DNA of 36,623 bases from assembly GCA_021159185.1 (NCBI GenBank), contig JAGGSH010000008.1, positions 1 to 36,623 of the forward strand, given 5' to 3'. The notes under the pieces were generated by a model. It ran no database searches. It saw nothing but the letters and a program-made list of their open reading frames with translations, and had not been told where the DNA came from. Each line of letters begins with the position of its first letter. The stretch's first letter is position 1. The stretch comes from a bacterium (GTDB lineage Bacteria; Patescibacteriota; Minisyncoccia; Moranbacterales; UBA9337). Shown here piece by piece: positions 2,937-21,081 of the stretch. The translations under genes were made by a program, and so were the position numbers.

Positions 2937-5447
2937 ATGAAGGCTTTTCCAATAAGGAGAGTATTTTTAATAGCGGTTATTGCCCTGACAACTGGTTTGG
3001 GTTTTTTTGTTGGGGAAATTTTCGCGGCGGGAGATGTTAAGCATGTTGTTATAAGTGAGATTCAAATTAGCGGTGAAACGGCCAATGATGAATTTATTGA
3101 GTTATATAATCGGACGGACAGCAAAATAAATCTTAATGGCTGGGATTTAAAAAGAAAGACGAAAAGCGGAAAAGAATACAATGTCCTGAATAATATTAAA
3201 GGAATAATTCCCGCCCGCGGTTATTTTTTAATCACGCCAAGGGCTAACTGCGGAAAAAATAAAACAGAGAATTGTTATGCCGGTTTGGCTTTTTTTGACG
3301 ATGAATATACGACAAATAGTTTTTTGGCAAAACACAACACAATCTTACTATACGATAAAAACGAAAACTTGATTGATAAAGTCGGTTGGGGAGAGGCCAA
3401 TGATTTTGAAGGAAGGGCCGTGGATGCCAATAATTTAAAGAATAGCCAAAGCATAGAGAGAAAAAGTGTAAATGGCATAATTCAAGATACTGATGATAAC
3501 AGCGCTGACTTTTTTACGCAGAAAAATCCTAATCCGCAAAATAGCTCTTATGTTAATAGTGGTGATAATGGTGATAATTTCACCAATGAAAATGTAAGCG
3601 AAAATAATAGTAAAAGTAATAGCAGTGAAAGCGATGATAGCGAGGATAGCAACAAAGCCGATAATAATGCGTTAACTGTTTATTATTCTAAGATAAGGAT
3701 AAACGAGTTGCTTCCCAATCCAAAGGGGAGCGACAGGGAAAATGAATACATAGAACTTTACAATTATGGCGATAAAGAAATTGATTTGGAAAACTGGGAG
3801 TTTAAAGACGCGAATATTTTGAAAAAGGGAAACAAAAAAGGAAAAAAATTATCGGGAATTATAGCGCCGAAAAAATATTCAGCTTTTTATAAGACCGTTT
3901 CGCTGAACAATAACGGCGATGAAATTAAATTATTTAATCCTAACGGGGACGAAATTGATAGCGTTGGTTATGGCAAGGCGAAAGAAAATTTTTCTTACAG
4001 TTTTAAGGGCGGGAAATGGGAGTGGACGCCTTTTTTAACTCCCGGAGAAGTCAATCGATTTAAAGTTAAAAAAAGTTATTCCCATTCTGTTTATATTAAC
4101 GAAATTCTGCCCAACCCTTCCGGTGAAGAAAAACTGAACGAATATATTGAACTTTATAATTCCGGTGATAAGAATATTGATTTAAGCCAATGGATTTTAA
4201 AGGATTCTTCTAAAAGTGGAAAGTTTATTTTCCCAGAAAATAGTTTGATAAAATCCAAAAAATTTTTGGCAGTTCATCGCGCCGATTTTAAATTCGCTAT
4301 GAATAATTCCGGATCGGAAACGATTTATTTTTTAGATCCCAATGAAAATATCGTGTTTTCCATTTTCTATTCCAAAGCCAAAGAGGATGTTTCCTATAAC
4401 TTCAACGGGCGCGGCTGGCGCTGGAGCCGATTTTTAACTCCGGGCGCGGAGAATAAATTCAATAGCTTGCCGAAAATAGAAATTAAAAAAGACAAGAAGG
4501 TCTATAAAAATATTTACGCTGATTTTAAAGTCAAAATAAGCGATCCCGACAAGGATAAAATAAAAGTCGTTTGGGATTTCGGCGACGGGCGTAAAAGTTA
4601 TAAAAAGAAAACCCGGCATAAGTATAAGGAGACGGGAAAATATTCCGCCGGCTTAAAAGTTTTTGACGGAAGCGAAGAAATAATTAAAAAGTTTAAAATC
4701 AAAGTCAAAAAATTTCCCCGTCCCAAGGTGAGAATTACCCGGCTTTTGCCTAATCCCAAAGGAAAAGACAGCGAGTTGGAGTGGATTGAAATTAAAAACA
4801 AATCCAAAAAAGAAATCAATCTGAAAAATTGGAGCATTGCCACCGGCAATTCCAGCAAAAAAATAACTAATCATCCGATCGGCGAAGATTTTTTTATCCG
4901 GCCGGGAAAAGTTAAAAAAATAATGAGAAACCTTTCTAAATTTTCATTGAATAATAAAAAGTGCCGAATTGAATTGCGTTATCCGGACGGAAAAATCGCT
5001 TACAAAATAAAATACAAAAGAGAGGACGGGGTTAAAGACGATGAAATTTACGAAAAAATGAAAGGCGGAAAATGGCAATGGACGAAGAAGAGCGTTCCGG
5101 ATGTTCTAAATGTTGAAGCTGTTCTAAATGTTGAAGATGATGAAGATGTTGAAATTGTTGAAAATGACGAAGATGAGGAAGATGTTGAAGATGAGAGGTG
5201 TATCGGCGGGCAGTCGCTGGAATTATCCGGCAATAAGGAATTAGAATTATTAGCGGGGGAATTAAGAATTGAAAAAGCGGGAAATACGGCGGCCGTCTTA
5301 GGCGTTTCCGCCGTTAAAAGAACAAGCGGCGGCTACGCTTTTAATTCTCCGGCCGGCTGCGACAAACATTACGCTTTGAAATTTTTAGAAAAATTATTTC
5401 AAGAAATCAACCAGACTTTAAATAATTGGATAAATCTGTTAAATTAA
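2937..5447 (+). CDS. Secreted protein with four lamin-tail domains and a PKD domain
   Basis: The 836-residue protein starts with a signal peptide (basic start, hydrophobic core ending GEIFAAG near residue 31). Four lamin-tail (LTD) domains follow at about residues 34-180, 251-365, 382-505 and 597-710. Each shows the pattern I-N-E-L/I-L-P-N-P-x-G then NEYIELYN...DLxxW. A PKD-like domain with VVWDFGDG (about 515-590) lies between the third and fourth. A Ser/Asn/Asp-rich linker spans about 200-245. An acidic stretch at about 720-745 is encoded by short tandem repeats of a GTTGAAGAT-like unit. A hydrophilic tail contains two cysteines; no LPxTG-type sorting signal was seen. Extracellular LTD repeats are thought to act in surface binding or in presenting nucleases, but no nuclease motif is visible, so I predict a surface structural or adhesive protein. 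Confidence 0.85.
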   Translation: MKAFPIRRVFLIAVIALTTGLGFFVGEIFAAGDVKHVVISEIQISGETANDEFIELYNRTDSKINLNGWDLKRKTKSGKEYNVLNNIKGIIPARGYFLITPRANCGKNKTENCYAGLAFFDDEYTTNSFLAKHNTILLYDKNENLIDKVGWGEANDFEGRAVDANNLKNSQSIERKSVNGIIQDTDDNSADFFTQKNPNPQNSSYVNSGDNGDNFTNENVSENNSKSNSSESDDSEDSNKADNNALTVYYSKIRINELLPNPKGSDRENEYIELYNYGDKEIDLENWEFKDANILKKGNKKGKKLSGIIAPKKYSAFYKTVSLNNNGDEIKLFNPNGDEIDSVGYGKAKENFSYSFKGGKWEWTPFLTPGEVNRFKVKKSYSHSVYINEILPNPSGEEKLNEYIELYNSGDKNIDLSQWILKDSSKSGKFIFPENSLIKSKKFLAVHRADFKFAMNNSGSETIYFLDPNENIVFSIFYSKAKEDVSYNFNGRGWRWSRFLTPGAENKFNSLPKIEIKKDKKVYKNIYADFKVKISDPDKDKIKVVWDFGDGRKSYKKKTRHKYKETGKYSAGLKVFDGSEEIIKKFKIKVKKFPRPKVRITRLLPNPKGKDSELEWIEIKNKSKKEINLKNWSIATGNSSKKITNHPIGEDFFIRPGKVKKIMRNLSKFSLNNKKCRIELRYPDGKIAYKIKYKREDGVKDDEIYEKMKGGKWQWTKKSVPDVLNVEAVLNVEDDEDVEIVENDEDEEDVEDERCIGGQSLELSGNKELELLAGELRIEKAGNTAAVLGVSAVKRTSGGYAFNSPAGCDKHYALKFLEKLFQEINQTLNNWINLLN

Positions 5448-7270: not shown

Positions 7271-7804
7271 ATGTCGGGACATTCAAAATGGAGCACCATA
7301 AAGCACAAGAAAGCTGCGACTGACGCGAGGCGGGCGAATGTTTTTACCAAGCTGGGCCGCTTGATTTCCGTTGCCGCTAAAAGAGGAGGCAATCCGAACG
7401 CTAACCTCAAATTAAAATTGGCTATTGATCAAGCGCGGGCGGTTAATATGCCGAAGGATAATATTGAAAGGGCGATAAAGCGCGGAACCGGAGAATTAAA
7501 AGACCAAGCGAATATTGAAGAAATAATTTATGAAGCATTTGGTCCGGGCGGAATAATGATGGTTATAAAAACCTTAACGGATAATAAGAATCGGACAGTG
7601 AGCGAAATTAAAACAATTTTAGGAAAATTTAGCGGCAAATTGGGCGGAATTGGCAGCGTGATGTGGAATTTTGAAATTTCCGAGTCGGGATATAAGCCGA
7701 AAAATATTATGAAAGTAGATAAAGTAGAATCGCAAAAATTTGCGTCTTTGCGGGAAGCGTTAGAAGAACAGGATGATGTGCAGAAAGTTTTTGATAATCT
7801 GTAG
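7271..7804 (+). CDS. yebC: Short YebC/PmpR family protein lacking most of domain III
   Basis: The N-terminus MSGHSKWSTIKHKKAATDAR and the following GNPNANLKLKLAIDQARAVNMPKDNIERAIKRG are classic for YebC/PmpR/TACO1, a family now linked to translation of proline-rich stretches and earlier described as transcriptional regulators. Domain II begins with YEAFGPGGIMMVIKTLTDNKNRT and runs to GSVMWNFE. Full-length members (about 240-250 residues) then have a domain III of about 60 residues. Here the sequence goes almost straight to the final helix, FASLREALEEQDDVQKVFDNL, giving only 177 residues. The deletion is clean and the C-terminal D-D-V-Q-x-V motif is kept, so this looks like a shortened functional form, not a broken gene. 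It is followed by ruvC, a common neighbour of yebC. Confidence 0.9.
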   Translation: MSGHSKWSTIKHKKAATDARRANVFTKLGRLISVAAKRGGNPNANLKLKLAIDQARAVNMPKDNIERAIKRGTGELKDQANIEEIIYEAFGPGGIMMVIKTLTDNKNRTVSEIKTILGKFSGKLGGIGSVMWNFEISESGYKPKNIMKVDKVESQKFASLREALEEQDDVQKVFDNL

Positions 7805-7913
7805 ATTGTCAAAAACTTAGTATTAAGTATTTTGTATAATGTATCAAGTATGATTTTTAAAAATGAAAAAAATACATAATACCAAATACAAGATACATAA
7901 TGCTACTCGCGCG

Positions 7914-8408
7914 TTGCGCGTTATTGGCATAGATCCTGGTACTGCTACAACGGGCTGGGCGGTAATAGGAGAAAAAGCGGGGAAAGTTACTCCACTAGCT
8001 TATGGACATATTAGTACTTCCCCTAAAAAAACAACTGCGCAAAGATTGAAAGAAACAGCGGATGATATTGAAGAAATAATTTTAAAATACAAGCCTCAAG
8101 AAGCGGCTGTGGAAGATATTTTCTTTTTTAAAAATGTGAAAACCGCTGTTAAAGTAAGCCAGTCGCGGGGAGCTATGCTGTTGACTTTGGAAAAATTAAA
8201 GGTTAGCATATTTGAATATACTCCGCTTCAGATTAAACAAGCATTAACCGGTTATGGGCGGGCGGAAAAAAAACAAATCCAGCTGATGGTGAAAAGTATT
8301 CTAAAACTAAAAACCATTCCCCGGCCGGACGACGCCGCTGACGCTATAGCCGCGGCTATCTGTCACATAAACAGCCGGAAAATAAATAATTTGAAAGATA
8401 TTTCATAA
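7914..8408 (+). CDS. ruvC: Crossover junction endodeoxyribonuclease RuvC
   Basis: RuvC cuts Holliday junctions symmetrically after RuvAB migration. The protein shows all family motifs: the first catalytic Asp in VIGIDPGTATTGWAVI, the Glu in AAVEDIFFFKNVKTA, the KVSQSRGAMLL helix, the YTPLQIKQALTGYGRAEKKQ loop, and the final catalytic pair in RPDDAADAIAAAICH. I chose the TTG at 7914 because it yields MRVIGIDPG, where the family normally starts. An ATG at 7863 would add 17 residues (MKKIHNTKYKIHN...). These are encoded by a TACATAATACCAAATAC-like stretch that resembles the non-coding repeat before ruvB, so I doubt they are translated. No strong ribosome binding site precedes either start. It follows yebC. 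Confidence 0.95.
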   Translation: MRVIGIDPGTATTGWAVIGEKAGKVTPLAYGHISTSPKKTTAQRLKETADDIEEIILKYKPQEAAVEDIFFFKNVKTAVKVSQSRGAMLLTLEKLKVSIFEYTPLQIKQALTGYGRAEKKQIQLMVKSILKLKTIPRPDDAADAIAAAICHINSRKINNLKDIS

Positions 8409-8414
8409 AAGCTA

Positions 8415-8556
8415 TCTCGCAAAACCGCGTTTTTTGAGAAATCAAACCGCGTGGCAATTGAAAAAATATAAGCACAGCTTAATTTAGAGATTTATTGAAG
8501 ATTATCGACCTAGTGGCTGGCTATGGGGATTTCTCAAAAAACGCGGTTTTGCGAGA
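8415..8556. repeat. 29-bp perfect inverted repeat around an 84-bp core
   Basis: Positions 8415-8443 (starting TCTCGCAAAACCGCGTTTTT) are the exact reverse complement of 8528-8556. The 84-base interior has no gene. A partial extra copy of the AAACCGCG core stands just inside the left arm (about 8444-8451). It fills most of the gap between ruvC and the seven-helix membrane gene. The arms could form a long cruciform or RNA stem, or could be the ends of a small non-autonomous element; no clear flanking duplication was found. Confidence 0.75.
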
Positions 8557-8601: not shown

Positions 8602-9261
8602 ATGAACACTATCAGTCCTTTAATTAATTATTTTGTTTCTCAGGGAGTTCCATTGGAAACAATTATACTTATTCTAATGCTTCCAATTATTGCTACCATG
8701 ATCGCTTTTTTCCGGCAAGTTGTCGGCATAAAGGCTTTTGGGATTTACACTCCCTTAATTGTAACTTTCGCTTTTCTGGCTATGGGGGTGAACGGAATAA
8801 AATACGGAGTGATTATTTTCGTAAGTGTTATTTTTATTGGTATGATCACCCGCTTCATTCTTAAAAAATTTCGCTTGCTTTATCTTCCCCGAGTAGCCAT
8901 AACTTTAAGCGTGGTGGCTTTTTCCATTTTAACCATATTGGTTTTCGGTGGAACGCTTCATCGGACAGGATTGGCGGCGGTTTCTATTTTTCCTTTGCTT
9001 ATTATGATTGCTATTGTGGAAAAGTTTGTGACTGCTCAAATAGAAAAAGGGAGTAAAACAGCTATATTATTAGCTGTTGAAACATTAGTAATTTCTTTAA
9101 TTGGATATTATCTCGCTAGCTGGGATATTCTGATAAGTGTTATAGTAGCTTATCCATATCTGGTCCTTTTTACTCTTCCTATAAATTTTGTTTTAGGCAA
9201 GTGGACAGGATTGAGGTTTGCCGAATATTACCGGTTTAGGGAAATTTTGAAAAAAATGTAG
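8602..9261 (+). CDS. Seven-helix membrane protein of the transglutaminase-associated 7TM type
   Basis: The 219-residue protein is almost entirely membrane helices (about seven) with short loops. It has FFRQVVGIKAFGIYTPLIVTFAF near the start, a basic loop RFILKKFRLLYLPRVA in the middle and a cytoplasmic end RFAEYYRFREILKKM. The G-I-x-x-F-G-x-Y-T-P-x-x-x-x-x-A-F pattern and its position just before a RimK-related ligase with a retropepsin-like domain match the 7TM domain that is elsewhere fused to an inactive transglutaminase (7TM_transglut family, described by Iyer, Aravind and colleagues). The transglutaminase part is absent, so only the membrane module remains. I infer a membrane anchor or transport partner for the ligase encoded downstream. 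Confidence 0.7.
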   Translation: MNTISPLINYFVSQGVPLETIILILMLPIIATMIAFFRQVVGIKAFGIYTPLIVTFAFLAMGVNGIKYGVIIFVSVIFIGMITRFILKKFRLLYLPRVAITLSVVAFSILTILVFGGTLHRTGLAAVSIFPLLIMIAIVEKFVTAQIEKGSKTAILLAVETLVISLIGYYLASWDILISVIVAYPYLVLFTLPINFVLGKWTGLRFAEYYRFREILKKM

Positions 9262-9358
9262 CCCACGAATATACGAATCTTTTTACAAATTTACAGATGT
9301 TAAATTAGAAAAAGCCGGATTTATTTGTAAATTTGTAGCTAATTTGTATATTTGTGGG
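9262..9358. repeat. Dispersed palindromic element C, copy 2
   Basis: The element starts CCCACGAATATAC and ends GTATATTTGTGGG, an imperfect inverted repeat. Sub-repeats TTTACAAATTTAC and TTTGTAAATTTGTA lie inside. It shares ends and internal words with 5458-5572. It occupies the whole gap between the 7TM gene stop codon and the ligase gene and overlaps a GTG at 9354 that might otherwise be mistaken for the ligase start. Confidence 0.7.
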
Positions 9359-9365
9359 AAATATT

Positions 9366-10760
9366 ATGTTTAATGCAATAAAAAACCGAAAAAAAATATT
9401 GGGAATGAATGCTCGCAATTTTAGTTATGTTAGACCTAATAATTTAAAGAAGGCTATTAGAATCGCGGATAATAAAATAGTCAGTAAAAGAATTCTTAGG
9501 AAAGATGGCATTCCCGTTCCCAAGTTAATCGCCAAGATTTCCTCTTATGAGGACTTGGAAAATTTTGATTGGAATTCTTTGCCGTCCGGATTCGCGCTCA
9601 AACCCAACAGCGGTCTGGGCGGAGAAGGCATAATAGTGGTTTACGGAAGAAAAAAAGGAAGAGAAGATGCGTGGGTCAAAGCGGATAGATCCGTTGTTAC
9701 GACAAAAGACTTGAAAAGCCACATCAGGAATGTTCTTGATGGAAATTTTTCCAGTTCCGGTGTTCCGGACATAGCTTTTTTTGAAGAAAGAATGCAGCTA
9801 CTTAAACTTTTCAAGCCCTATTCCTATAGAGGCATTCCCGACATTAGAATAATTGTTTACAATAAAGTTCCCGTGATGGCGATGTTGCGCCTTCCCACAA
9901 AAGCGTCGGGAGGGAAAGCCAATCTTCAGCAAGGAGCGGTCGGAGTAGGCATTGATTTAGCGACGGGAATTACTACCTCGGCGGTTCAAGGTAAAACCAA
10001 AATTATTGAATACGCGCCCGGGACGCGCTTGCTTCTTTCCGGAATAAAAATTCCCTATTGGAAAAGCATGCTTGAGCTGGCGGTGCGTGCCCAAGAAATA
10101 TCGGGATTGGGATTTTTAGGGGCGGATATTGCCATAGACAAGGAATATGGGCCTGTCTTTCTAGAGCTTAACGCCCGCGCCGGACTGTCCATCCAAATTG
10201 CCAATCTGGACGGGCTTAAAGAACGATTGGAGAGAATAAGCGGGCTTAAAATTAAAACCGCGCAAAGGGGCGTAAGAGTGGGGATGAATCTTTTTGGCGG
10301 CGAAGTGGAAGAAGAAGTGGAAGAAATTTCAGGGAAGAGAGTTATCGGACCAGTGGAGAAAGTGAAACTGATTGGAAGGAAAGGAAAAGAAGTGGAAGTA
10401 GAAGCCAAGATTGACACTGGCGCTGGCTGGTCGTCCATAGATTCGGAAATTGCCAAAGAAATAGGATTTGAGAAAACGGTTGAAGAGTATGATAAATTAA
10501 ACATTAGCTACCAAGATATAAAAGATTTAAGCAAAAAAGAGCGCTGGAATATTGTAAAAAATGTTCCCTATATCGATTCTGCATTAATAGTCCATTCTTC
10601 GCATGGAACTACTTACCGTCCGATGGTGAAAGTGAATCTCTTTATGGACAAAAGAAATGTTTCGGCCAAAGTCACTATTATTGATCGGGCGCAACTAAAA
10701 TATCCTGTTATCATCGGAAAAAGAAATTTGGGAAGATTTTTAATTGATGTCAATAAATAA
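9366..10760 (+). CDS. ATP-grasp ligase fused to a retropepsin-like aspartyl protease domain
   Basis: Residues 1 to about 310 form an ATP-grasp domain of the RimK-related alpha-L-glutamate-ligase-like (sugar-transfer-associated) type. It shows LGMNARNFSYVRPNN at the start, KDGIPVPKL, the ATP-binding FALKPNSGLGGEGIIVV, IPDIRIIVYN, and the metal-binding GADIAIDKEYGPVFLELNAR. From about 325 a second domain follows: KVKLIGRKGKEVEVEAKIDTGAGWSS, containing D-T-G-A, and ending YPVIIGKRNLGRFLIDV. This is the retropepsin-like fold annotated as 'ATP-dependent zinc protease' (RimB-like, PF05618). In other bacteria the ligase and protease are usually separate genes in one operon. I infer that the enzyme makes, and may trim, a peptide or amino-acid modification. 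The start is the ATG at 9366; the in-frame GTG at 9354 lies in repeat C2. Confidence 0.85.
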   Translation: MFNAIKNRKKILGMNARNFSYVRPNNLKKAIRIADNKIVSKRILRKDGIPVPKLIAKISSYEDLENFDWNSLPSGFALKPNSGLGGEGIIVVYGRKKGREDAWVKADRSVVTTKDLKSHIRNVLDGNFSSSGVPDIAFFEERMQLLKLFKPYSYRGIPDIRIIVYNKVPVMAMLRLPTKASGGKANLQQGAVGVGIDLATGITTSAVQGKTKIIEYAPGTRLLLSGIKIPYWKSMLELAVRAQEISGLGFLGADIAIDKEYGPVFLELNARAGLSIQIANLDGLKERLERISGLKIKTAQRGVRVGMNLFGGEVEEEVEEISGKRVIGPVEKVKLIGRKGKEVEVEAKIDTGAGWSSIDSEIAKEIGFEKTVEEYDKLNISYQDIKDLSKKERWNIVKNVPYIDSALIVHSSHGTTYRPMVKVNLFMDKRNVSAKVTIIDRAQLKYPVIIGKRNLGRFLIDVNK

Positions 10761-10764
10761 GGAT

Positions 10765-11691
10765 ATGTCAAAAAAAATTATACTTGTCCTTTATAGCCAA
10801 AAATTTCCTGAAAATATGCTACGGCGTTCGGAAGATATGTTTAGTTTTTTTTCTAGTAAATGTATAAAATTATGCAGAGGGTTTATTAGCGATTTCAGTG
10901 AAAAAGATAAATTATTTCAAAAAGCCTTATTTTTCGAAAATAAAAAATGGGCATGGAAAGAAAATATTATTCCTGATGAAATTTATGATAGATCACTTTT
11001 TATACGCAGTAAATCAGAAATGGATAGACGTAAAATTATAGAAAAAAACTTTATTTTTTATAATAGTCTCAAAATTAACGAGTTGATGAGCAATAAATGG
11101 CTAACATACAAAAATTTTATCGAATATTCTCCCAAAAGTGTTTTAATCGAGAATAAAAATGATCTTGATAAATTTAAAAAACTCAGTTCAGAAAAAATTA
11201 TTTTAAAACCTCTTTTCGGGTCAGGAGGTAGAAATATAAAAGTTTATAAAAAGTCCGACTTTCGTCCGATAAAATTTCCTTTTATCGTTCAAGAATTTTT
11301 GGTTACCAGAAAGGGCATTCAGGGTATTGTGAAAGGGCAACACGATTTGAGAATTATACTGGCAAATAATAAAATTATTCATTCTTTTGTGCGCGTTCCT
11401 CTTAAAGATAAATTTATTGCCAATCTTTCTCAAGGAGCGAAAATAAAACTTATCTTAGAAAAAAATTTGCCAAAAGAAGTTATAAAAATTGCAAAAAAAA
11501 TTTCTAAAAAAATAAATCGGGTTGATATTAAAGGCAAAAAGAGATTATATTCGGTTGATTTTTTAGTTAGTGACTCTCAGAGACCTTATTTATTGGAGTT
11601 TAATTCGCGTCCAGGAATTATATTGGAAAAAGAAGAAATGAAAGTCAGAGCCTCTTATTATAATAATTTAATAAATTTTTTCAAAAAATAA
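10765..11691 (+). CDS. ATP-grasp ligase (RimK/YheCD-like), second of three
   Basis: This protein of about 308 residues has a poorly conserved N-terminal domain (MSKKIILVLYSQKFPENML) and an ATP-grasp core. The core includes NKWLTYKNF, the nucleotide-binding KIILKPLFGSGGRNIKVYKK, FIVQEFLVTRKGI, HDLRIILANNKII and the metal-binding SVDFLV...PYLLEFNSRPG. Enzymes of this fold join a carboxylate to an amine through an acyl-phosphate; the substrates here are unknown. The gene starts 4 bases after the previous stop (ATG 10765), and in-frame TTG/ATG codons at 10744/10747 would overlap the upstream gene. It is markedly more AT-rich and Lys/Asn/Ile-rich than the genes before it, suggesting a different origin or relaxed composition. 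It is co-directional with the next ligase one base away. Confidence 0.75.
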   Translation: MSKKIILVLYSQKFPENMLRRSEDMFSFFSSKCIKLCRGFISDFSEKDKLFQKALFFENKKWAWKENIIPDEIYDRSLFIRSKSEMDRRKIIEKNFIFYNSLKINELMSNKWLTYKNFIEYSPKSVLIENKNDLDKFKKLSSEKIILKPLFGSGGRNIKVYKKSDFRPIKFPFIVQEFLVTRKGIQGIVKGQHDLRIILANNKIIHSFVRVPLKDKFIANLSQGAKIKLILEKNLPKEVIKIAKKISKKINRVDIKGKKRLYSVDFLVSDSQRPYLLEFNSRPGIILEKEEMKVRASYYNNLINFFKK

Positions 11692-11692
11692 T

Positions 11693-12616
11693 ATGAAGAT
11701 ATGTATTTTAACTTATCATAAGAGTGTCCACCCAGTAAAAAGATTAAAGGAAGAAGGAGAAAAAAGAAATCACGATATATATGTAATGGAATGGGAAGAT
11801 ATGATTTTTAATAACAATTATAAAAAGAGAAATTATCTCGGTGATAAGAAGAAAGATTTAAAAGAATTCGATGCTATTATTCCGCGTAGCGATCGTTATC
11901 GCATTGAAATAAACGGAAGAAAAGTTAGTAGGAATTTAAATACAATTTTTCGTTTAATTATACAATATATTGAAGGGAGTAAGACATTTTTTTTAAACAG
12001 TCGATATTTTTCTGAATATCAAAGCTTGGATAAAATTTCTCAACAATTCTTTTTTGCTCAAAATAAAATTTCCGGGATAGATACTTATTTTTTTACTTCC
12101 CCTGAAAAACTTCCGAAATTAACTCAAAAAAAAGTGCTGAAGTTTCCAATTATTGCTAAAATGGCAGAGGGAAGCGTGGGGAAAAGCGTTTATAAATTAG
12201 AAAACAAAAACAGTTTAAGAAAATTTCTTATTGATAGAGAAGAAAATGATTCTTTATTCTTGTTTCAAAGGTATTATAAAATAAAGTCTGATTTTAGGGT
12301 ATTAGTTGTTGGAAATAAATCTTTGGGAGTAATTGAAAGAATCGCTCAAAAAGGAGAATGGAAAACTAATATTTCTTTAGGAGGAAAACCGAAATCATTT
12401 ATTGATGATAAGATGGCTGGGTTAGCTGAAAAAGTTTCCAGAAAAATGAAACTTGATTATGTCGGAGTGGATATTTTAAAAGACGGAGAAAAATACAGGG
12501 TGATTGAAACTAATTCATTACCTCAGTTTAAGGGATTTGAGGAAGCTAATCACGACGTTAATGTAGCCAAGGAGCTTATTAAGTTAGTCGAAAAAAGATA
12601 TCGTAGTGAATTTTGA
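11693..12616 (+). CDS. RimK-type ATP-grasp ligase, third of three
   Basis: The 307-residue protein is a fuller match to RimK-type ligases than its upstream neighbour. It has an N-terminal domain MKICILTYHKSVHPVKRL with FDAIIPRSDRYR, the PIIAKMAEGSVGKSVYKL phosphate-binding strand and loop, LFQRYYKIKSDFRVLVVGNK, then AQKGEWKTNISLGGKPK, and the metal-binding YVGVDILKDGEKYRVIETNS followed by LPQFKGFEEA. RimK-like enzymes add amino acids (often glutamate) to a protein or small-molecule carboxylate; the acceptor here cannot be read from sequence. It starts one base after the stop of the previous ligase and is similarly AT-rich, so both were probably acquired or evolved together. The next gene follows within 4 bases. 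Confidence 0.85.
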   Translation: MKICILTYHKSVHPVKRLKEEGEKRNHDIYVMEWEDMIFNNNYKKRNYLGDKKKDLKEFDAIIPRSDRYRIEINGRKVSRNLNTIFRLIIQYIEGSKTFFLNSRYFSEYQSLDKISQQFFFAQNKISGIDTYFFTSPEKLPKLTQKKVLKFPIIAKMAEGSVGKSVYKLENKNSLRKFLIDREENDSLFLFQRYYKIKSDFRVLVVGNKSLGVIERIAQKGEWKTNISLGGKPKSFIDDKMAGLAEKVSRKMKLDYVGVDILKDGEKYRVIETNSLPQFKGFEEANHDVNVAKELIKLVEKRYRSEF

Positions 12617-12620
12617 TCAA

Positions 12621-13289
12621 ATGAAAATTTTTAGCGCGAGAGGATATTTCGCCGGTGTGAATGCATTAAAAATTATCATCAATGCGGATGATTACGGGTT
12701 AAGCAAAGAGTTTAATAGGGGCATTCTTGAACTTGCCGGGAAAAGAATAGTTTCCAGCATTACTGTAATGATAAATAGAAAATATGTTAAGCCGCTAGAT
12801 TTGTTAACTTTTAAAAACATTTCCGTCGGGCTTCACTTAGAGCTTAAAGAAAAAGCCTCATTAGAGGAAATTGAGAATCGAGTAAAAAAATTTAAAAATA
12901 AATTTAAGAAGATTCCGTCCCATCTTGACGGACACAAACATTGCCACTTAACAAAAAATAATCTTCCAAAAGTTATTAGAATAGCCCAGAGATATAATTT
13001 GCCTGTCAGATCTAAACTTACGCAAGACAGGAAGATGTTAAGGGAATATAAAATAAAAACTCCCGATAGATTTATTAGCTGGCATCCAAAAAGAAAAGAG
13101 AAGTTTTTTAGCAGGATAAAAAATATTAAAAGTCCCACTTGTGAAATTGTTTGCCATCCAGGGTATTTTGATAAAAGCTACAAGTGTTCTTATAATAAAC
13201 AGCGGGAACAAGAGTTAAGAATATTAAAAAGCGGAGAATTTAAAACAATAATTAAAAAATATAAATTAGTTAATTATAGCGACTTATGA
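12621..13289 (+). CDS. YdjC/ChbG-family carbohydrate deacetylase
   Basis: Members of this family remove acetyl groups from N-acetylated sugars through a metal-dependent mechanism. Seen here are LKIIINADDYGLS (catalytic Asp and metal ligand), ISVGLHLEL (His ligand), SHLDGHKHCHL (second His) and IVCHPGYFD. The length of about 220 residues fits. Three starts are possible: GTG 12606, ATG 12621 and GTG 12657. I chose ATG 12621, but GTG 12657, 12 bases after a GAGAGGA, gives a start closer to the usual M-x-x-I-I-N-A-D-D. The end overlaps the PBP gene by 4 bases (ATGA), implying translational coupling. Placement between amino-acid ligases and a peptidoglycan synthase suggests that it acts on cell-wall or surface amino sugars (inference). 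Confidence 0.85.
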   Translation: MKIFSARGYFAGVNALKIIINADDYGLSKEFNRGILELAGKRIVSSITVMINRKYVKPLDLLTFKNISVGLHLELKEKASLEEIENRVKKFKNKFKKIPSHLDGHKHCHLTKNNLPKVIRIAQRYNLPVRSKLTQDRKMLREYKIKTPDRFISWHPKRKEKFFSRIKNIKSPTCEIVCHPGYFDKSYKCSYNKQREQELRILKSGEFKTIIKKYKLVNYSDL

Positions 13290-15793
13290 AGCCTATTTTT
13301 ACGGCTAGAAAATTTAATAAACCGAAACAAGGGAATTTTTGGAAATTGCTGGCGAAAACGCTGGTTTTTTTGGCTGGGCTGGCGTTGCTGGGAGCAATAG
13401 GCGTGTTCGCGTATTTTGCCAAAGACTTGCCCGATCCGGGGAAAATAAATAAGCGCTTAGTAGTTGAGTCCACTAAGATTTACGATCGCACCGGCCAACA
13501 TTTGCTTTACGAAATTCACGGCGAAGAAAAAAGGACGCTCATTTCTTTTGAAGAAATTCCAGAAAACATAAAATGCGCCACCATTGTTTTAGAAGATCAG
13601 GATTTTTATTCTCATCATGGTATAAAGTTAAGCTCCATTTTTCGGGCGGCTTTCAAAGATGTGCTTCACCGAGGAGTAGCTCAAGGCGGATCAACTATCA
13701 CTCAGCAGTTTATTAAGAATTCTATCCTAACATCAGAGAGAACGATGGCCAGGAAAATAAAAGAAGTTATTTTATCTTTTGAAATGGAACAGAAATTTTC
13801 CAAAGATGAAATTCTGGGAATGTATCTTAATGAAATACCTTACGGATCTAACGCTTACGGCATTGAAGCGGCTGCCCAAACTTTTTTTGGGAAGCATGCT
13901 CGTGAATTGTCGCTGGATGAAGCGGCTATGCTGGCGGCTTTGCCTAAAGCTCCTACCTATTATTCGCCTCACGGATCCCATCCAGAAAAATTGAAAGAGA
14001 GGCAAAAGACAGTCTTAAAAAGAATGGCTGACTTGGGATATATTACTTCCTCTCAAGCAGAAGAAGCTATAAACGCTGATGTTTTTAGCAAGCTAACATC
14101 TCATTGGGAAGAAATTCAAGCGCCTCATTTCGTTATGTTTGTGAAAGAATATTTAGAAAGCAAGTATGGCGATCAAGTGATAGAGCAAGGAGGTTTTAAT
14201 GTGCGCACTACTTTAGATTGGGATAAGCAACGGATTGCCGAAAAGGTGGTGAGGGAAGGGGTGGAAAAAAACAAGACATATAATGCCAGTAACGCGGCGC
14301 TAACAGCCATTGATCCCAAAACGGGACAGATTTTAGTAATGGTGGGATCTAAAGATTATTTTGACAAGTCTATTGACGGGCAGGTTAATGTGGCTATTCG
14401 CGATCGCCAGCCGGGTTCGTCTTTCAAGCCTTATGTTTATCTTACCGCTTTTACGGAAGGTTATACCCCTGAAACTATTTTGTTTGATGTAAAAACGGAA
14501 TTTGAAACCGGGACAGACAAAGAATATAGTCCGCAAAATTATGACGGAAGTTTTCATGGACCGTTAAAAATCAAAGAAGCTCTGGGGCAATCGCTTAATA
14601 TTCCGGCCGTTAAAACTTTATATTTAGCCGGTGTAAAAGATTCTATTAAAATGGCCAAGCGTTTGGGAATAACCGGACTAAACCAACCGGAGCGTTATGG
14701 GCTCTCGCTGGTTTTAGGCGGAGGAGAAGTGAAATTGCTAGACCATGTAAGCGCTTTCGGAACTTTAGCCAATAAAGGAGTTCGCCATGAAAAAACGGCT
14801 ATTTTAAGAATAGAAGACAATAAGGGGAAAATATTGGAAGAATTTAAGCCGTCTCCCGGAGAAGAAGTGGTAAAAGAAAAATATGTGGCGATGCTAGACT
14901 ATATTATTTCAACCAATAAATACCGCGCTCCCGCTTTTGGGGAAAATAACCCGTTCCGATTTGATAATCGTCCCGTGGCGGCTAAGACGGGAACTACCAA
15001 TGAGTTTCGGGACGGCTGGGCGATTGGATATACTCCGTCATTGGCAGTGGGTGTTTGGGCGGGAAATAATGATAATTCTCCAATGAAAGAAGGATCCGCC
15101 GGAGCTTATGTGGCCGCGCCCATCTGGAGGAGTTTTATGGATCAGGTTTTAGGAAATTATAATATAGAGCAATTTCCTAAATATGAAAAAGAGGAAGATA
15201 TTGAAAAGCTGGTCCTAAAAGGCGAGCTGGATATTAAAAAGGATGTTAAAGTGTGCGAGATTCCCGGCCGAAAAAATAAGTATTGCCTGGCTAATAAATA
15301 TTGTTTGAAAGAAGATGAAAAGAAAAGGAGTTTTGCCAATGTCCATAATATACTTTGGTATGTTGATAAAAACGACCCCCGGGGAGAATATCCGGAAAAT
15401 CCCGAAAAAGATCCACAGTTTAAAAAATGGGAGAAGGGAGTAAAAAAATGGTATGAAAAAGAGGAAGAGAAATATGTTTGGGGCGAAGCGGTGGAAGAAG
15501 AATGCCGCCAAAGCGATTTCAGCAAATATCTTCCTAAAATTGACTTGTCGGTTTCAGGCGAAAATTCCTCGCAACTCTCTATTTCCGTGGACGCGAGCGC
15601 TCCTTACGGCGTGGATAAAGTCAAGGTTTACATAGACGATAAGGAGATCGGCTCTTTTGACCAAAAAGATTTTAGTTTTAAATATTCCCTTTCCGCCGAA
15701 GAAAACAATACCACTTTAAAAATCAAAGCCAAAATCACCGACAAAAACGGAAACGAAGCCGGCGACAGCAAGGATGTAAGGGTGAGTTTTTAG
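13286..15793 (+). CDS. Class A penicillin-binding protein (bifunctional transglycosylase/transpeptidase)
   Basis: This 835-residue PBP1A/1C-like enzyme polymerises lipid II glycan and crosslinks stem peptides outside the membrane. It has a short cytoplasmic basic segment and one transmembrane helix (about 22-46). The GT51 domain contains Glu103 in LEDQDFYSHHG, GGSTITQQFIKN and YLNEIPYG. The transpeptidase domain has S378-S-F-K381 in RQPGSSFKPY, S436-L-N438 and K567-T-G569 in AAKTGTTNEF. A C-terminal extension holds a Lys/Glu-rich segment with several cysteines (about 640-720) and an Ig-like domain (about 750-835: LSISVDASAPYGVDKVKVYI). ATG 13286 overlaps the deacetylase stop. The stop lies inside a hairpin (15792-15813), and a terminator follows at 15827. 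Confidence 0.95.
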   Translation: MKPIFTARKFNKPKQGNFWKLLAKTLVFLAGLALLGAIGVFAYFAKDLPDPGKINKRLVVESTKIYDRTGQHLLYEIHGEEKRTLISFEEIPENIKCATIVLEDQDFYSHHGIKLSSIFRAAFKDVLHRGVAQGGSTITQQFIKNSILTSERTMARKIKEVILSFEMEQKFSKDEILGMYLNEIPYGSNAYGIEAAAQTFFGKHARELSLDEAAMLAALPKAPTYYSPHGSHPEKLKERQKTVLKRMADLGYITSSQAEEAINADVFSKLTSHWEEIQAPHFVMFVKEYLESKYGDQVIEQGGFNVRTTLDWDKQRIAEKVVREGVEKNKTYNASNAALTAIDPKTGQILVMVGSKDYFDKSIDGQVNVAIRDRQPGSSFKPYVYLTAFTEGYTPETILFDVKTEFETGTDKEYSPQNYDGSFHGPLKIKEALGQSLNIPAVKTLYLAGVKDSIKMAKRLGITGLNQPERYGLSLVLGGGEVKLLDHVSAFGTLANKGVRHEKTAILRIEDNKGKILEEFKPSPGEEVVKEKYVAMLDYIISTNKYRAPAFGENNPFRFDNRPVAAKTGTTNEFRDGWAIGYTPSLAVGVWAGNNDNSPMKEGSAGAYVAAPIWRSFMDQVLGNYNIEQFPKYEKEEDIEKLVLKGELDIKKDVKVCEIPGRKNKYCLANKYCLKEDEKKRSFANVHNILWYVDKNDPRGEYPENPEKDPQFKKWEKGVKKWYEKEEEKYVWGEAVEEECRQSDFSKYLPKIDLSVSGENSSQLSISVDASAPYGVDKVKVYIDDKEIGSFDQKDFSFKYSLSAEENNTTLKIKAKITDKNGNEAGDSKDVRVSF

Positions 15794-15857: not shown

Positions 15858-15976
15858 CGAGAAAGATAACTTGTGGCGTATTTTATGAGTGTGCTTGAAG
15901 AAAATTCTGAAATAAAAGAAAGAAGGGGTTTAAAGGAATGAATGCTCAAGTCTAACTAAATTATAATTACAATATC

Positions 15977-17137
15977 TTACCGATTACCTTTTGCGCGATT
16001 GTGTGTTTTGCACAACATCTCGCAGTTTTTAGCGTCTGTCGCGCCACCTTTGCTCCATGCTGACACGTGGTCAGCGTCCATTTCACTAAACAGCCAGATT
16101 TTATTCTTGTTAGTGTCATGTCCAACAGCGCACAGCGGGCAATTTGATATTTTTCTCTTTTTAGCTATAGCGGTTTGCGTTGCGTAAACCGCTCTTTTGG
16201 TTGCTTCGTCAAATACACGAACATTAAGCAGTTTTGTGTCAACTGAACCACCAAGTATATATTCAAAAATACCTTTACGATTTTTGATATAAGGATCGCC
16301 ATAAAGTTTTTGCACCGCTTTTGAAACTTTTGACGGATCGTAAGATTTTTTGCGGTATTTCTCATATAACCGCCCCCATTCAAGACCGCGCATTTCCTTT
16401 TCAACATCTGTAAACACACTGGAAATCCAATCAATTACGCTATTGAAATACGTTTTTAATTCTTTGATATTTGTATCTTCGCGATGACGGCTCATGTAGT
16501 CGTCAATATTGCCTTTACTCACCCAGTCTAATGCTTGCTCCAAAAAATCTTGGCGATTAACAATGCCAGATATGTACGCGCTCCATTTTTGAGTGTTGGC
16601 ATTTTGACTATTGCTAAATTCTTCTTTCGCAAGCGTTACAAATGGTCCTGAATAAATAGCGTTGAGCAATTCTTGAGGTTTGAGCGGAACACCTGCGATG
16701 TTGATTGTTTTAAACCATTCTTTAATTTGGCTTTCGGTGCCCTTACATTCATAAATTAAAAGTTTGGTTTCCAAAATTTTATCTTTTTTATCTTTTGCCA
16801 TAGTGCCAAAATACTGCATCCCGTTTTCATCTTTAAGAGCAAATTTGTCAGTAATAAATCGCCCAAGACTGGTGATACGCTGTTGTCCGTCCAACACCTC
16901 AAATTTATTATTGCCAACCTTATTGAAATAGATTAGTCCAATCGGATAACCCTTGAGAACTGATTCTATTACTGCGGCTTCTCTTCCTTCTTCCGCGTAA
17001 ATATAATTGCGCTGATATTCCGGCTGAATAGTCAGTTTGCCAGCCAAGCCAAACAAGCCCTTGCCTTCAAGTTCGTTATAAACAAACCCTTCGCAAATAT
17101 CTTTAACAGTTATGTTAGTTTTTAAAATTGTGTCCAT
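15977..17137 (-). CDS. DUF262 (ParB-like) protein with C-terminal HNH nuclease domain
   Basis: The 386-residue protein has an N-terminal DUF262/GmrS-type domain, shown by [31 protein letters not shown] and the signature [18 protein letters not shown]262 is a ParB/Srx-related fold that in GmrSD-type enzymes uses nucleotides to license DNA cutting. A helical middle section follows. The end is an HNH module: CPLC, then [13 protein letters not shown] (the D-H pair) and [14 protein letters not shown], with two CxxC-like pairs that can hold zinc. All expected HNH residues are present, so I predict an active DNA nuclease. The start ATG at 17137 lies one base downstream (on the minus strand) of the RhuM gene's stop at 17139, indicating one transcript. 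A copy of its first codons survives upstream at 18181-18219. Confidence 0.85.
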
Positions 17138-17138
17138 A

Positions 17139-18173
17139 CTACTTTTTTAAATTATCTTTTAATTTTTTCTCCACTTTTTTCTCAAGTGTTTTAATGTTTT
17201 CCAAATACGCTTCTTCTACCGGAGAAAGAGTTTTTGCCTGAAATTTCTTGTATTCTTTGACGGCTTTTTCAGCGGCTTGCTTATTGCTCACTTTCCCCGC
17301 GTTTTGCAGCGCGCCCTTACCGTAATTTTCGGTAAATTTATCTAATTCTGCCACCCAATCCGCCATACTCATTTTTTGTTTTTCTTGGGCTTTTATTTCC
17401 GCTAAATCAAAGAACGCCGAGACCATGCGGTTGAGCCGAAACAATTCGTCTTCGGTAAGATAATTTTTTGCTATTGCTACTTCAGATAATGTCGGCAATG
17501 CTCCGGCAAAAGCGGTCAATCCCATAAAATCTTTTTCCGCGTCAGCTCTCTCAGCGATTGTTTCGGCGGCGGTATGTTTATTGGTCGCGTAATGAAGTTT
17601 GTTTTGCACTATCTTAAAAAATGTGATTGATTCCGGACTATGAGGATTGTAATCAATGCTCGTGGCATACAGATCCAGCACTTGGCGATAAAGGGCTTTT
17701 TCGCTGCTGCGGATGTCGCGGATGCGGTCAAGCAGTTCTTTCCAGTAATTGCCCCCGCCGGATTTTTTAAGCCGCTCGTCATCCATCACAAAACCTTTAA
17801 CAATATACTCTTTTAATTTTTGCGTTGCCCAAATTCTAAATTGTGTGCCGCGCAATGATTTCACCCGATAGCCGACGGAAATAATAACATCAAGGTTATA
17901 ATATTTCACGGATTGTTCTTGAATTTTTCCTTTTATAGCTCCGTGTCGAGCGGTATGTCGGAAATCCCGACATACCGCTTTTTCATCCAACTCGCCTTCT
18001 CTAAATACATTTTGTATGTGTTCGGCAATTGTAGAGCGTCCCTTATCAAAAAGCTCCGCCATCTGCTTTTGCGAAAGCCAAACGGTTTCGTTTTTCATCC
18101 GCACCTCAATCTTTGTCTCGCCATCCGCGGTGTTGTAGATGATAATTTGGTTGTTTTTATCTTGGGTGTTCAT
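17139..18173 (-). CDS. RhuM-family protein
   Basis: The 344-residue protein matches the RhuM family ('virulence RhuM', PF13310). It shows [20 protein letters not shown], then [19 protein letters not shown] (a DNA-binding-like helix-turn-helix), [50 protein letters not shown], and the C-terminal helical half with [19 protein letters not shown] and [12 protein letters not shown]. The end is a Lys/Glu coiled coil. Named after a Salmonella pathogenicity-island gene, the family occurs in many mobile islands and beside restriction systems; its biochemical role is not established. Here it sits between the ATPase and the DUF262-HNH gene in one operon. A 13-bp perfect stem-loop lies inside the coding sequence at 17949-17978. 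Confidence 0.88.
17949..17978. repeat. 13-bp perfect stem-loop inside the RhuM gene
   Basis: AGCGGTATGTCGG (17949-17961) is followed by a short loop and its exact complement CCGACATACCGCT (17966-17978 within one base). The reading frame stays open through it (codons for about [15 protein letters not shown]). It could be chance, a site for DNA recognition, or an mRNA structure. Confidence 0.6.
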
Positions 18174-18180
18174 AATTTTT

Positions 18181-18219
18181 TACCAGTCGCAAATGTCTTT
18201 AATAGTGATGTTTGTTTTT
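18181..18219 (-). pseudogene. Remnant of a second DUF262 gene start
   Basis: Reading the minus strand, this stretch encodes KTNITIKDICDW and then a stop. The intact DUF262-HNH gene starts [18 protein letters not shown]. The DNA of the two stretches is also very similar, with only a few substitutions over about 35 bases. The frame upstream lacks an ATG and is AT-rich junk. It lies between the ATPase and RhuM genes, so a DUF262-type gene or a copy of its 5' end once stood here and was mostly deleted or displaced. Confidence 0.6.
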
Positions 18220-18275
18220 GGGGTTGGTTTTATATTGTTATTTTTAATTTTTATATTTGATTTTATATAAATTGA

Positions 18276-19811
18276 TTAAAAAAATCCTCTCATTTTCTCT
18301 ATAGATTGTTTTAATTCTTGTGGTGTTGGACTTCCTCCGTTTTCTTTAGGGTGATGAATTTTATTTCTAATGTGGGTGTGGATTGTTACTTTATTTTGAG
18401 TAGTTCTAAAAGGACTATTTACTGTTTCTTTTTTTAATTTTGAGAAAAATTCGTTATCAAAAATAATTTGTCGACAATCGTTTTTGTCATAACTTTCGTT
18501 TTGTTTCAATGTTTTAAAATCATTATCTGGATCATTCCAAAAATTTATTTCAATCTCATTATAAAGTTCATCATAATATTCTTCAGTTGCTAACCCAAAA
18601 GCAATAAAATTTACTTCGTTAGCCGAAACATAAGGCAAAACTCTTTTTTCTAATTCTAAAATTTTTACTTCTTCATTTTCTTTTTCTAAACAATGAATTT
18701 GAATTTTAACATTGTCATTGTTTAATGTTTGTTTAACAAAAAGTGGAGAGTGAGTAGAAAATAGAAATTGATTTTTTTCAGAAATTGATACTATGTGATC
18801 AATAAAATTATTTTGTAAATCTGGGTGTAGATGTAGTTCCGGTTCATCAATTAAAATCAAAATATTTTCTTTCGAAATTTCCGCCATTGTTTCTAAAAAC
18901 AATAAAGAAACAACCATTTCAACGCCTGATCCAAGCTGAGATATTGGCAAATCTAAGCTTTCTAATTTTTGAGAAAGAAAAGCGCTGTCAAAAGGTGCAT
19001 TACAATCAATTAGTGAAAGATCAGCTTTTGGCAAACCTACTTTTTCCAGTTTTTCGTTTAGTTTCTGGAATGTTTTTTGTTGTGATTTTTCATCTATCTT
19101 TTCTAAAATACTTGTTTCAAAATTATTTTTTTGAGTAATAAATTTTTCACCATTAAAATCTTCAGCTGTTTCAATTTTTCTTACTTCTTTATTGAATCTC
19201 CAATTAAAATCATCAAAAACAGATGAAATAGACGAATTAAATCCTTTATAAAGTTGCTTTTCTCTATTTTTTGGAAAATAAAAACTCTTTGGCAAACCTT
19301 CTGATTCCAAAGGAAAAGTTAACAATCTTTTATCAAATGTAAAAATTGATGGCTTTTCTGGTTTATGTCCTTTTCTTTCTTTTTCCCAATACTCTTTTTC
19401 TACACCATTTTGCGTAATTGTTTTACTTTCATTAACGGGTAAAACATAATGAGAACCAACAACAATATCTGAAAAAGCTTTTTTGGGGGTTGCTCTATCT
19501 CTTTTCTTTACTTCTAAACAAACTCTATTACATTCTATTTCTTGTTTAGTGTAGCCATCTGGTAAAAGTACTTTAAAATTTTCATCAAATTCTAAAATAA
19601 TTTTTATTTTAATATCTTCGCCCTTGTGAAAATCTGTATGTTTTATTCTTCCTGATAAAAAATAAGGAGAAAGACAAAAATTTATTGCCTCTAAAATGGA
19701 GGTTTTACTTGTCCCATTTTCACCAACTAATAAAGATAGATTTTCTAATTGAAAATTTTCTAATTTTTTAATTCCTCTAAAATTTTCAATAGCAATCTGT
19801 TTAATTTTCAT
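18276..19811 (-). CDS. OLD-like AAA ATPase with HEPN-like C-terminus
   Basis: The protein of about 511 residues has an SMC/OLD-type ATPase. It shows MKIKQIAIENFRGIKKL, Walker A LLVGENGTSKTSILEAIN, an ABC-signature-like LGSGVEMVVSLLFLETM, Walker B ILILIDEPELHLHPDLQ and the switch His in QFLFSTHSPLFV. These AAA_15/AAA_21 proteins serve as motors or sensors in defence systems. After the ATPase there is no obvious Toprim domain. The end instead reads HTHIRNKIHHPKENG, which fits the R-N-x-x-x-H motif of HEPN ribonucleases, so I infer an ATPase-HEPN effector. I chose the ATG at 19811, 1 base after the methyltransferase stop; an in-frame ATG at 19862 would overlap that gene by 50 bases. The gene is visibly more AT-rich than its island neighbours. 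Confidence 0.75.
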   Translation of the reverse strand: MKIKQIAIENFRGIKKLENFQLENLSLLVGENGTSKTSILEAINFCLSPYFLSGRIKHTDFHKGEDIKIKIILEFDENFKVLLPDGYTKQEIECNRVCLEVKKRDRATPKKAFSDIVVGSHYVLPVNESKTITQNGVEKEYWEKERKGHKPEKPSIFTFDKRLLTFPLESEGLPKSFYFPKNREKQLYKGFNSSISSVFDDFNWRFNKEVRKIETAEDFNGEKFITQKNNFETSILEKIDEKSQQKTFQKLNEKLEKVGLPKADLSLIDCNAPFDSAFLSQKLESLDLPISQLGSGVEMVVSLLFLETMAEISKENILILIDEPELHLHPDLQNNFIDHIVSISEKNQFLFSTHSPLFVKQTLNNDNVKIQIHCLEKENEEVKILELEKRVLPYVSANEVNFIAFGLATEEYYDELYNEIEINFWNDPDNDFKTLKQNESYDKNDCRQIIFDNEFFSKLKKETVNSPFRTTQNKVTIHTHIRNKIHHPKENGGSPTPQELKQSIEKMRGFF

Positions 19812-19812
19812 A

Positions 19813-20928: not shown

Positions 20929-21019
20929 ACTTTGCTCAATCGGATGAATGTTGTATTAGTTTTTTTATGGATAAATTTTTCGAAATCGTGTAATTTTGCA
21001 AATAAAGAATTTTTGTTTA

Positions 21020-21068
21020 AATCCCTGTTTTCCACCATAGGCAGATAAAAAATTCAGGGATTCTTTTT
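21020..21068 (+). terminator. Terminator-like hairpin, right island boundary
   Basis: AATCCCTG (21020-21027) can pair with CAGGGATT (21055-21062) around a 27-base loop, followed by CTTTTT. The T-run is on the + strand although the genes on both sides lie on the minus strand, so this looks like a duplicated copy of the PBP terminator at 15827-15857. Confidence 0.5.
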
Positions 21069-21081
21069 ACAAGAAAGTTTT

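Follow-up and report, generated by a model that had tools for sequence, protein, structure and literature searches.

An exchangeable ATP-grasp ligase cassette behind a conserved ligase-protease and 7TM core in Moranbacteria: candidate genes for a variable surface peptide or polyamide

The cell surface of Patescibacteria, their contact zone with hosts and phages, is chemically little known. Here we describe a locus at positions 8602–15793 of contig JAGGSH010000008.1 (assembly GCA_021159185.1), from a genome of the order Moranbacterales (Moranbacteria); the whole contig of 36,623 nucleotides was analysed and is referred to as the window. The locus encodes a seven-transmembrane (7TM) protein, an ATP-grasp ligase fused to a retropepsin-like protease (G1R), two further ATP-grasp ligases, a YdjC-type deacetylase, and a class A penicillin-binding protein (PBP). 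Throughout the order a fixed core is combined with a swapped set of ligase genes, the cassette, which lies between G1R and the PBP. These are candidate genes for a variable surface product made by amino-acid ligation.

All relatives compared were draft or metagenome-assembled genomes with mechanical gene calls. In a comparison of the window with its sister species (loci L011 and L084), the 7TM proteins share 84% identity, the ligase and protease parts of G1R 88% and 83%, YdjC 68%, and the PBP 83%. The positional counterparts of cassette ligases 1 and 2 share 32% and 35% identity. At the DNA level, positions ~10757–12667 could not be aligned apart from 270 bp at 67%, and the sister species holds an extra gene for a MATCAP metallopeptidase. 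In a still closer pair, L146 and L149, the DNA shows 97.9% identity for 5.1 kb as far as a breakpoint within the retropepsin domain; beyond the cassette, identity is 96.5% over 7.9 kb. The cassettes between these near-identical flanks are unrelated, with nothing alignable. Such pairs of near-identical genomes would allow a direct comparison of the chemistry.

The same pattern recurred across the order. The pairs overlap in their genomes, which makes them interdependent, and pair counts describe this pattern and do not test it: in 173 within-genus pairs (136 ligase comparisons), median identity was 79% for G1R, 80% for the PBP, and 26% for the best ligase; identical ligase series were found in 19 of 85 complete within-genus pairs; and less than 25% of the middle could be aligned in 33 of the 48 within-genus pairs with alignable flanks. 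In 110 between-family pairs, some cassette gene was more similar than the G1R proteins of the same two genomes, which points to transfer of cassette genes between families. Barring assembly artefacts, we are highly confident that the cassette is exchanged wholesale between conserved flanks.

The variable zone begins within G1R. Within genera, G1R identity is 76–95% up to residue 360, just beyond the catalytic DTGA motif, and 48–54% thereafter. In both L146/L149 and L128/L131, the breakpoint falls inside the retropepsin domain. Identity drop, breakpoints, and guanine-plus-cytosine (GC) content place the start of the low-GC variable zone in the hypervariable C-terminal part of the retropepsin domain (10434–10760 in the window, forward strand). 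Mean GC content is 44.4% in the first part of G1R, 37.4% in its last part, 36.6% in the ligases, and 42.8% in the PBP, with ligase GC below PBP GC in 77 of 82 loci (p=3e-14). In the window, the two cassette ligases average 28%, and the G1R ligase part and PBP 41–43%. The variable retropepsin part did not covary with the first ligase (partial Mantel r=0.015, p=0.28).

To delineate what is fixed, the surroundings of 120 G1R loci were mapped with profiles built from named loci. G1R was present in 125 of the 131 genomes of the order and in 66 of 66 genera. The 7TM gene lay directly upstream in 112 of 116 loci, and RuvC was found upstream in 93 of 104. Of the 96 loci with sufficient sequence, 92 had a gene run that ended with a PBP on the same strand. 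The initial annotation had proposed such a survey, in which conserved linkage to ydjC and PBP genes would support one pathway. Linkage to further ligases and to the PBP is indeed conserved order-wide, which excludes a peculiarity of this one genome; YdjC is an optional member, present in 10 of 92 cassettes. Likewise, the proposal that a known module had been extended by two ligases holds insofar as ligases follow the core; these do not form a fixed pathway, the cassette being replaced between close relatives.

The six genomes of the order without G1R also lack the 7TM gene. Co-loss of this pair was dropped as evidence for a single pathway, as RuvC was missing too in five of five genomes checked. 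In the sixth (G008), a contig ends within the locus. The absences are therefore probably not true losses; in the five without RuvC, the contigs concerned are more likely to be missing from the assemblies. Among 380 genomes across the phylum, a G1-type protein (E ~1e-29 or better) was detected in 115, and PF14402, the family of the 7TM protein, in 110, all within those 115. Woesebacteria, Shapirobacteria, and Collierbacteria carry a 7TM–G1R–ligase block without RuvC or PBP nearby. The core unit is thus the 7TM protein, G1R, and ligases, and RuvC and the PBP are neighbours kept mainly in this order.

Cassettes are assembled from a small toolbox of ATP-grasp ligases (RimK-like, glutathione (GSH)-synthetase-like, and cyanophycin-synthetase-type), MATCAP, YdjC, GT1, and GNAT proteins. 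In 92 loci, the number of ATP-grasp ligases between G1R and PBP was zero in 6, one in 32, two in 28, three in 24, and four in 2. Other genes included MATCAP (13 loci), GT1 (12), YdjC (as above), the c21 family (8), Mur-ligase-like genes (6), and GNAT (6). Counting ligases and other genes alike, the 92 loci showed ~60 distinct gene series. Three ligase types recurred, labelled from the mapping profiles: GRa (RimK/LysX-like), GRb (divergent GSH-synthetase/RimK-like, with RimK as best profile match), and GRc (cyanophycin-synthetase type, matching cyanophycin synthetase in the PDB with E=1.4e-75). In several loci, the gene after GRc matches the Mur-ligase part of the cyanophycin synthetase model. 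In L184, for example, the GRc gene covers model positions 211–474 and the next gene 481–860, with the N-domain missing. GNAT adjoins GRc in some loci.

The MATCAP metallopeptidases retain their HExxxH motif, and c21 is a remote relative of this family (hhalign 95.6%, E=1.2e-8). Within this order, MATCAP has a gene of its own; in other Patescibacteria it is fused to a G1R ATP-grasp ligase (~670–1030 amino acids). Such fusions adjoin a 7TM protein, several of which bear a PKD ectodomain. In L211, L213, L220, and L054, the PKD ectodomain takes the place of the inactive transglutaminase of proteobacterial RloB. L220 holds 7TM, G1R, and MATCAP together with an N-formylglutamate amidohydrolase. A recurrent cassette family of ~470–490 amino acids (L013, L088, L091, L095; a 469-amino-acid family) gave no Pfam match in the scanned member and has no HExxH motif.

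Within the window, genes were assigned from mechanical open reading frame calls and Pfam and NCBIfam profile searches, which bore out the gene identities of the initial annotation as well as its spacings. All lie on the forward strand. The 7TM gene (8602–9261; PF14402, E=1.4e-28) encodes 219 residues with seven hydrophobic segments (AlphaFold predicted local distance difference test score, 91). It matches profile positions 58–247, corresponding to the 7TM, RloB-like membrane half without the transglutaminase domain. G1R (9366–10760) consists of an ATP-grasp domain (~9414–10241; PF14397/TIGR02291-like, PF14397 E=6.7e-67) and a retropepsin domain (~10344–10754; PF05618, E=1.5e-11). Its ligase part passes the PF14397 cut-off and scores 281.3 bits against TIGR02291, whose cut-off is 314.2. 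The nearest solved structures are RimK/ArgX for the ligase part and 9g58/9g59 for the protease part. The closest named relative of G1R belongs to a Candidatus Moraniibacteriota genome (85% identity). Neither a signal peptide, a hydrophobic N-terminus, nor a transmembrane segment was predicted in G1R.

Cassette ligase 1 (10765–11691) is a GSH-synthetase/RimK-like ATP-grasp protein of type GRb (E ~1e-12). Cassette ligase 2 (11693–12616; PF08443, E=7.4e-30) is a RimK family ATP-grasp protein of type GRa, with RimK 5zct as top PDB match (E=8.5e-20). The two are the only RimK-family matches in the genome, which measures 0.94 Mb at an estimated completeness of 96% and of which the window is one contig. 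The YdjC-type sugar N-deacetylase follows (12621–13289; PF04794, E=2.1e-36). Its real start may lie ~15 codons further downstream, as the part homologous to L084 begins at 12668. A MATCAP gene often follows YdjC in relatives and is absent here. Last in the run is the class A PBP (13286–15793; PF00912, PF00905), with transglycosylase, transpeptidase, and Ig-like C-terminal parts. It passes the PBP_1a_fam cut-off (TIGR02074, 533.9 bits), and its GT51 and transpeptidase domains carry catalytic motifs. This is the one class A PBP found in the genome. Many Moranbacterial genomes (e.g. L206–L210) encode a second, often of ~620–800 amino acids, away from the locus.

If 10765 and 12621 are taken as ATG starts, the genes from 9366 onward are spaced by +4, +1, and +4 bases, followed by an ATGA overlap between YdjC and the PBP. 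This tight overlap is unusual: the gap before the PBP is 20 bp or less in 7 of 92 loci and usually ~90 bp. Promoter and terminator signals were little above shuffled expectation and scattered through coding sequence, and transcripts were not defined from them. Intact motifs were found in the retropepsin domain (DTGA), the ligases (E-x-N), YdjC (ADD, HLDGHKH, and CHPG at the active site), and the PBP (EDQDF, SSFK, SLN, and KTGT). Among the locus genes, membrane segments were predicted in the 7TM protein and PBP only; the ligases, retropepsin domain, and deacetylase are therefore most likely cytosolic.

The closest described counterpart of the core is the rloABC operon of Pseudomonas aeruginosa, which encodes the retropepsin RloA, the inactive transglutaminase-7TM protein RloB, and the ATP-grasp protein RloC (PMC12239564). 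The initial annotation had rightly related the core to an ATP-grasp/retropepsin/7TM operon type; its description of that type as functionally undefined is dated, as rlo mutants show hypo-osmotic, beta-lactam, biofilm, and cell-shape phenotypes (PMC12239564). A Shewanella transposon screen also ties an inactive transglutaminase-7TM gene to vesicle production (PMC12096838). Shared with RloABC are a homologous ATP-grasp ligase (TIGR02291, at a score just under its cut-off), a retropepsin (top model RloA3), and the 7TM half of RloB, in genes that are adjacent and co-occur. However, the retropepsin here is fused to a cytosolic ligase, whereas RloA is a separate secreted protein with a signal peptide. 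The transglutaminase domain is absent (RloB model 75.9 bits; cut-off 900), and, unlike in RloABC, an exchangeable ligase cassette and a PBP follow.

Other systems share single aspects. The general layout resembles capsule and O-antigen loci in its conserved flanks and its non-homologous, low-GC middle exchanged between near-identical genomes. In contrast to those loci, the middle encodes amino-acid ligases and peptidases for the most part, in place of glycosyltransferases. Neighbourhoods combining ATP-grasp, DUF1704 (QEGLA, MATCAP), and N-formylglutamate amidohydrolase genes were reportedly described by Iyer et al. in 2009. The pairing of MATCAP with ATP-grasp ligases, and in L220 the amidohydrolase, recalls these; here they are merged with an Rlo-type core, even as a ligase-retropepsin-MATCAP fusion. 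GRc ligases and Mur-ligase-like genes of related cassettes match the ATP-grasp and Mur-ligase parts of the cyanophycin synthetase CphA, but as two split genes without the N-domain, and the two ligases of the window are of other types. A ligase and a retropepsin also share a single polypeptide in RimBK hybrids, in which, unlike here, the RimB domain is N-terminal, the ATP-grasp domain is of another subfamily, and no 7TM partner has been described (PMC11957791). The locus thereby unites three separately described groups, namely Rlo, MATCAP/DUF1704, and cyanophycin-synthetase-type ligases. We found no earlier description of it in Patescibacteria in the open-licence literature; most subscription papers lay outside this scope, and the evidence for novelty is weak.

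The locus is a relative of the Rlo ligase/protease/7TM system whose ligase cassette is exchangeable in the manner of a capsule locus. Our data suggest, with about an even chance of being right, that it specifies a variable peptide or polyamide made in the cytosol and destined for the surface. We favour this reading because the ligase set differs between close relatives and is accompanied by trimming peptidases, optional sugar enzymes, conserved flanks, and low GC. Addition and trimming of amino acids, as proposed in the initial annotation, would be the natural activity of such enzymes judging from their families. The cytosolic ligases would add amino acids stepwise to an acceptor, which might be a sugar amine freed by YdjC, a peptide, or a lipid-linked primer. 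The retropepsin fused to the ligase would trim or release the product, as may MATCAP peptidases where present. The 7TM protein could couple synthesis to the membrane and help pass the product to the surface, where it would be displayed or linked to the PBP-made wall. The product may be attached to a glycan amine exposed by YdjC. For the PBP itself, the association could reflect wall attachment, co-expression, or position alone. The chemistry would differ between species, with selection at the surface (e.g. by phages or hosts) favouring cassette switching. It is conceivable, though somewhat short of an even prospect, that this amounts to serotype-like switching, in which recombination would replace the ligase cassettes that lie between the ligase-protease/7TM pair and the PBP, and so vary a coat of non-ribosomal peptide or polyamide in Moranbacteria and probably in many Patescibacteria.

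Several observations weigh against a variable surface product. No flippase, Wzy polymerase, or ABC exporter was recognised among annotated cassette genes, some genes being unannotated. A fold search with the 7TM protein against solved structures returned no matches at E<=0.001, with weak NqrD/RnfE-like ones only. Once relatedness is allowed for, the variable retropepsin part shows no covariation with mean cassette similarity (partial Mantel r=0.036, p=0.096). Finally, the cassette is not enriched in contig breaks over the upstream side (25 ends downstream, 30 upstream; p=0.59), and the breaks thus give no sign of strain-level variation.

Of the alternatives, dedicated peptidoglycan modification survives best, although we consider it unlikely. 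Here the ligases would extend wall precursors by amino acids of a cross-bridge or side chain, and the PBP would be adapted to the modified stem peptide. ATP-grasp bridge ligases such as the D-aspartate ligase of enterococci offer a precedent, and the PBP that closes nearly every run is the sole class A PBP of the window genome. The beta-lactam and cell-shape phenotypes of P. aeruginosa rlo mutants also fit (PMC12239564). However, the PBP remains ~80% identical while the ligases are replaced, with no sign of tracking them, and its identity is unassociated with that of the first ligase once G1R is accounted for (p=0.14). The gap before the PBP is commonly wide, RuvC linkage is about as tight as PBP linkage, and the ligase block outside the order has no PBP nearby. 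Adjacency to the PBP alone is thus no proof of a peptidoglycan pathway. The initial annotation had joined the module to cell-wall synthesis, for which the order-wide PBP linkage speaks; a dedicated pathway is possible but unproven. Its further suggestion that parts of standard peptidoglycan chemistry may be replaced is unsupported, as the genome retains four Mur-ligase genes and an intact PBP.

Somewhat less probable still is a cytosolic polyamide or small molecule, such as a cyanophycin-like storage polymer, an osmolyte (N-acetylglutaminylglutamine), or a peptide natural product, degraded by the peptidases. The cyanophycin-synthetase-type ligases with their split Mur-ligase partner in several cassettes, and GNAT beside GRc in some, are consistent with this, as are enzymes free of signal or membrane segments and the possible degraders MATCAP and retropepsin. 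Yet a pathway for storage or osmolytes is not expected to undergo wholesale swaps between near-identical genomes, the association with a membrane protein and a PBP is constant, and the window ligases are not of cyanophycin type. For a graspetide, no precursor-peptide gene was seen at the locus, where the short gaps leave little room; one elsewhere in the genome is possible.

Reversible protein modification appears improbable. RimK adds glutamates to ribosomal protein S6 and the retropepsin RimB removes them, and RimBK hybrids exist (PMC11957791). By analogy, the ligases would poly-glutamylate or tail proteins, and retropepsin or MATCAP would remove the tails. Cassette ligase 2 is nearest RimK, and the pairing of a ligase with a carboxypeptidase resembles the tubulin TTL/MATCAP cycle. 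Such a cycle leaves the several exchanged, non-homologous ligases, YdjC, GT1, and the 7TM partner unexplained. A mere hotspot where unrelated ligases gather between housekeeping genes without forming one pathway fits the unrelated conserved flanks RuvC and PBP, the few empty cassettes, and the low GC suggestive of imported DNA, but is very improbable given the small toolbox dominated by ATP-grasp ligases, the MATCAP-G1R fusions, and ligases that follow G1R where the flanks differ too (Woesebacteria, Shapirobacteria).

Upstream of the locus lie the conserved housekeeping neighbours yebC and ruvC (7271–8408, forward strand; Pfam), which are probably outside its function. The 193-bp gap between ruvC and the 7TM gene contains a perfect 29-bp inverted repeat (8415–8443 and 8528–8556) with 84 bp between the arms. 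As this gap is merely 15 bp in the sister species, the repeat looks like a small insertion resembling a miniature inverted-repeat transposable element, and it could affect transcription into the 7TM gene. Directly after the PBP, positions 15863–21077 on the minus strand encode an HNH/GmrSD-like type II restriction enzyme, a RhuM-family protein, an AriA/Old-like ATPase, and an EcoRI-type methyltransferase. These genes are missing between the same neighbours in L084, and the segment looks like an inserted defence island. The adjoining minus-strand gene (21082–24156) encodes a 1024-amino-acid protein with weak PADLOC matches only; the sister species has this gene too (78.5% DNA identity). Further upstream, positions 2937–5447 encode an 836-amino-acid protein that combines four Lamin Tail Domain stretches with a PKD domain and is probably a surface protein; it is conserved upstream of many Moranbacterial loci.

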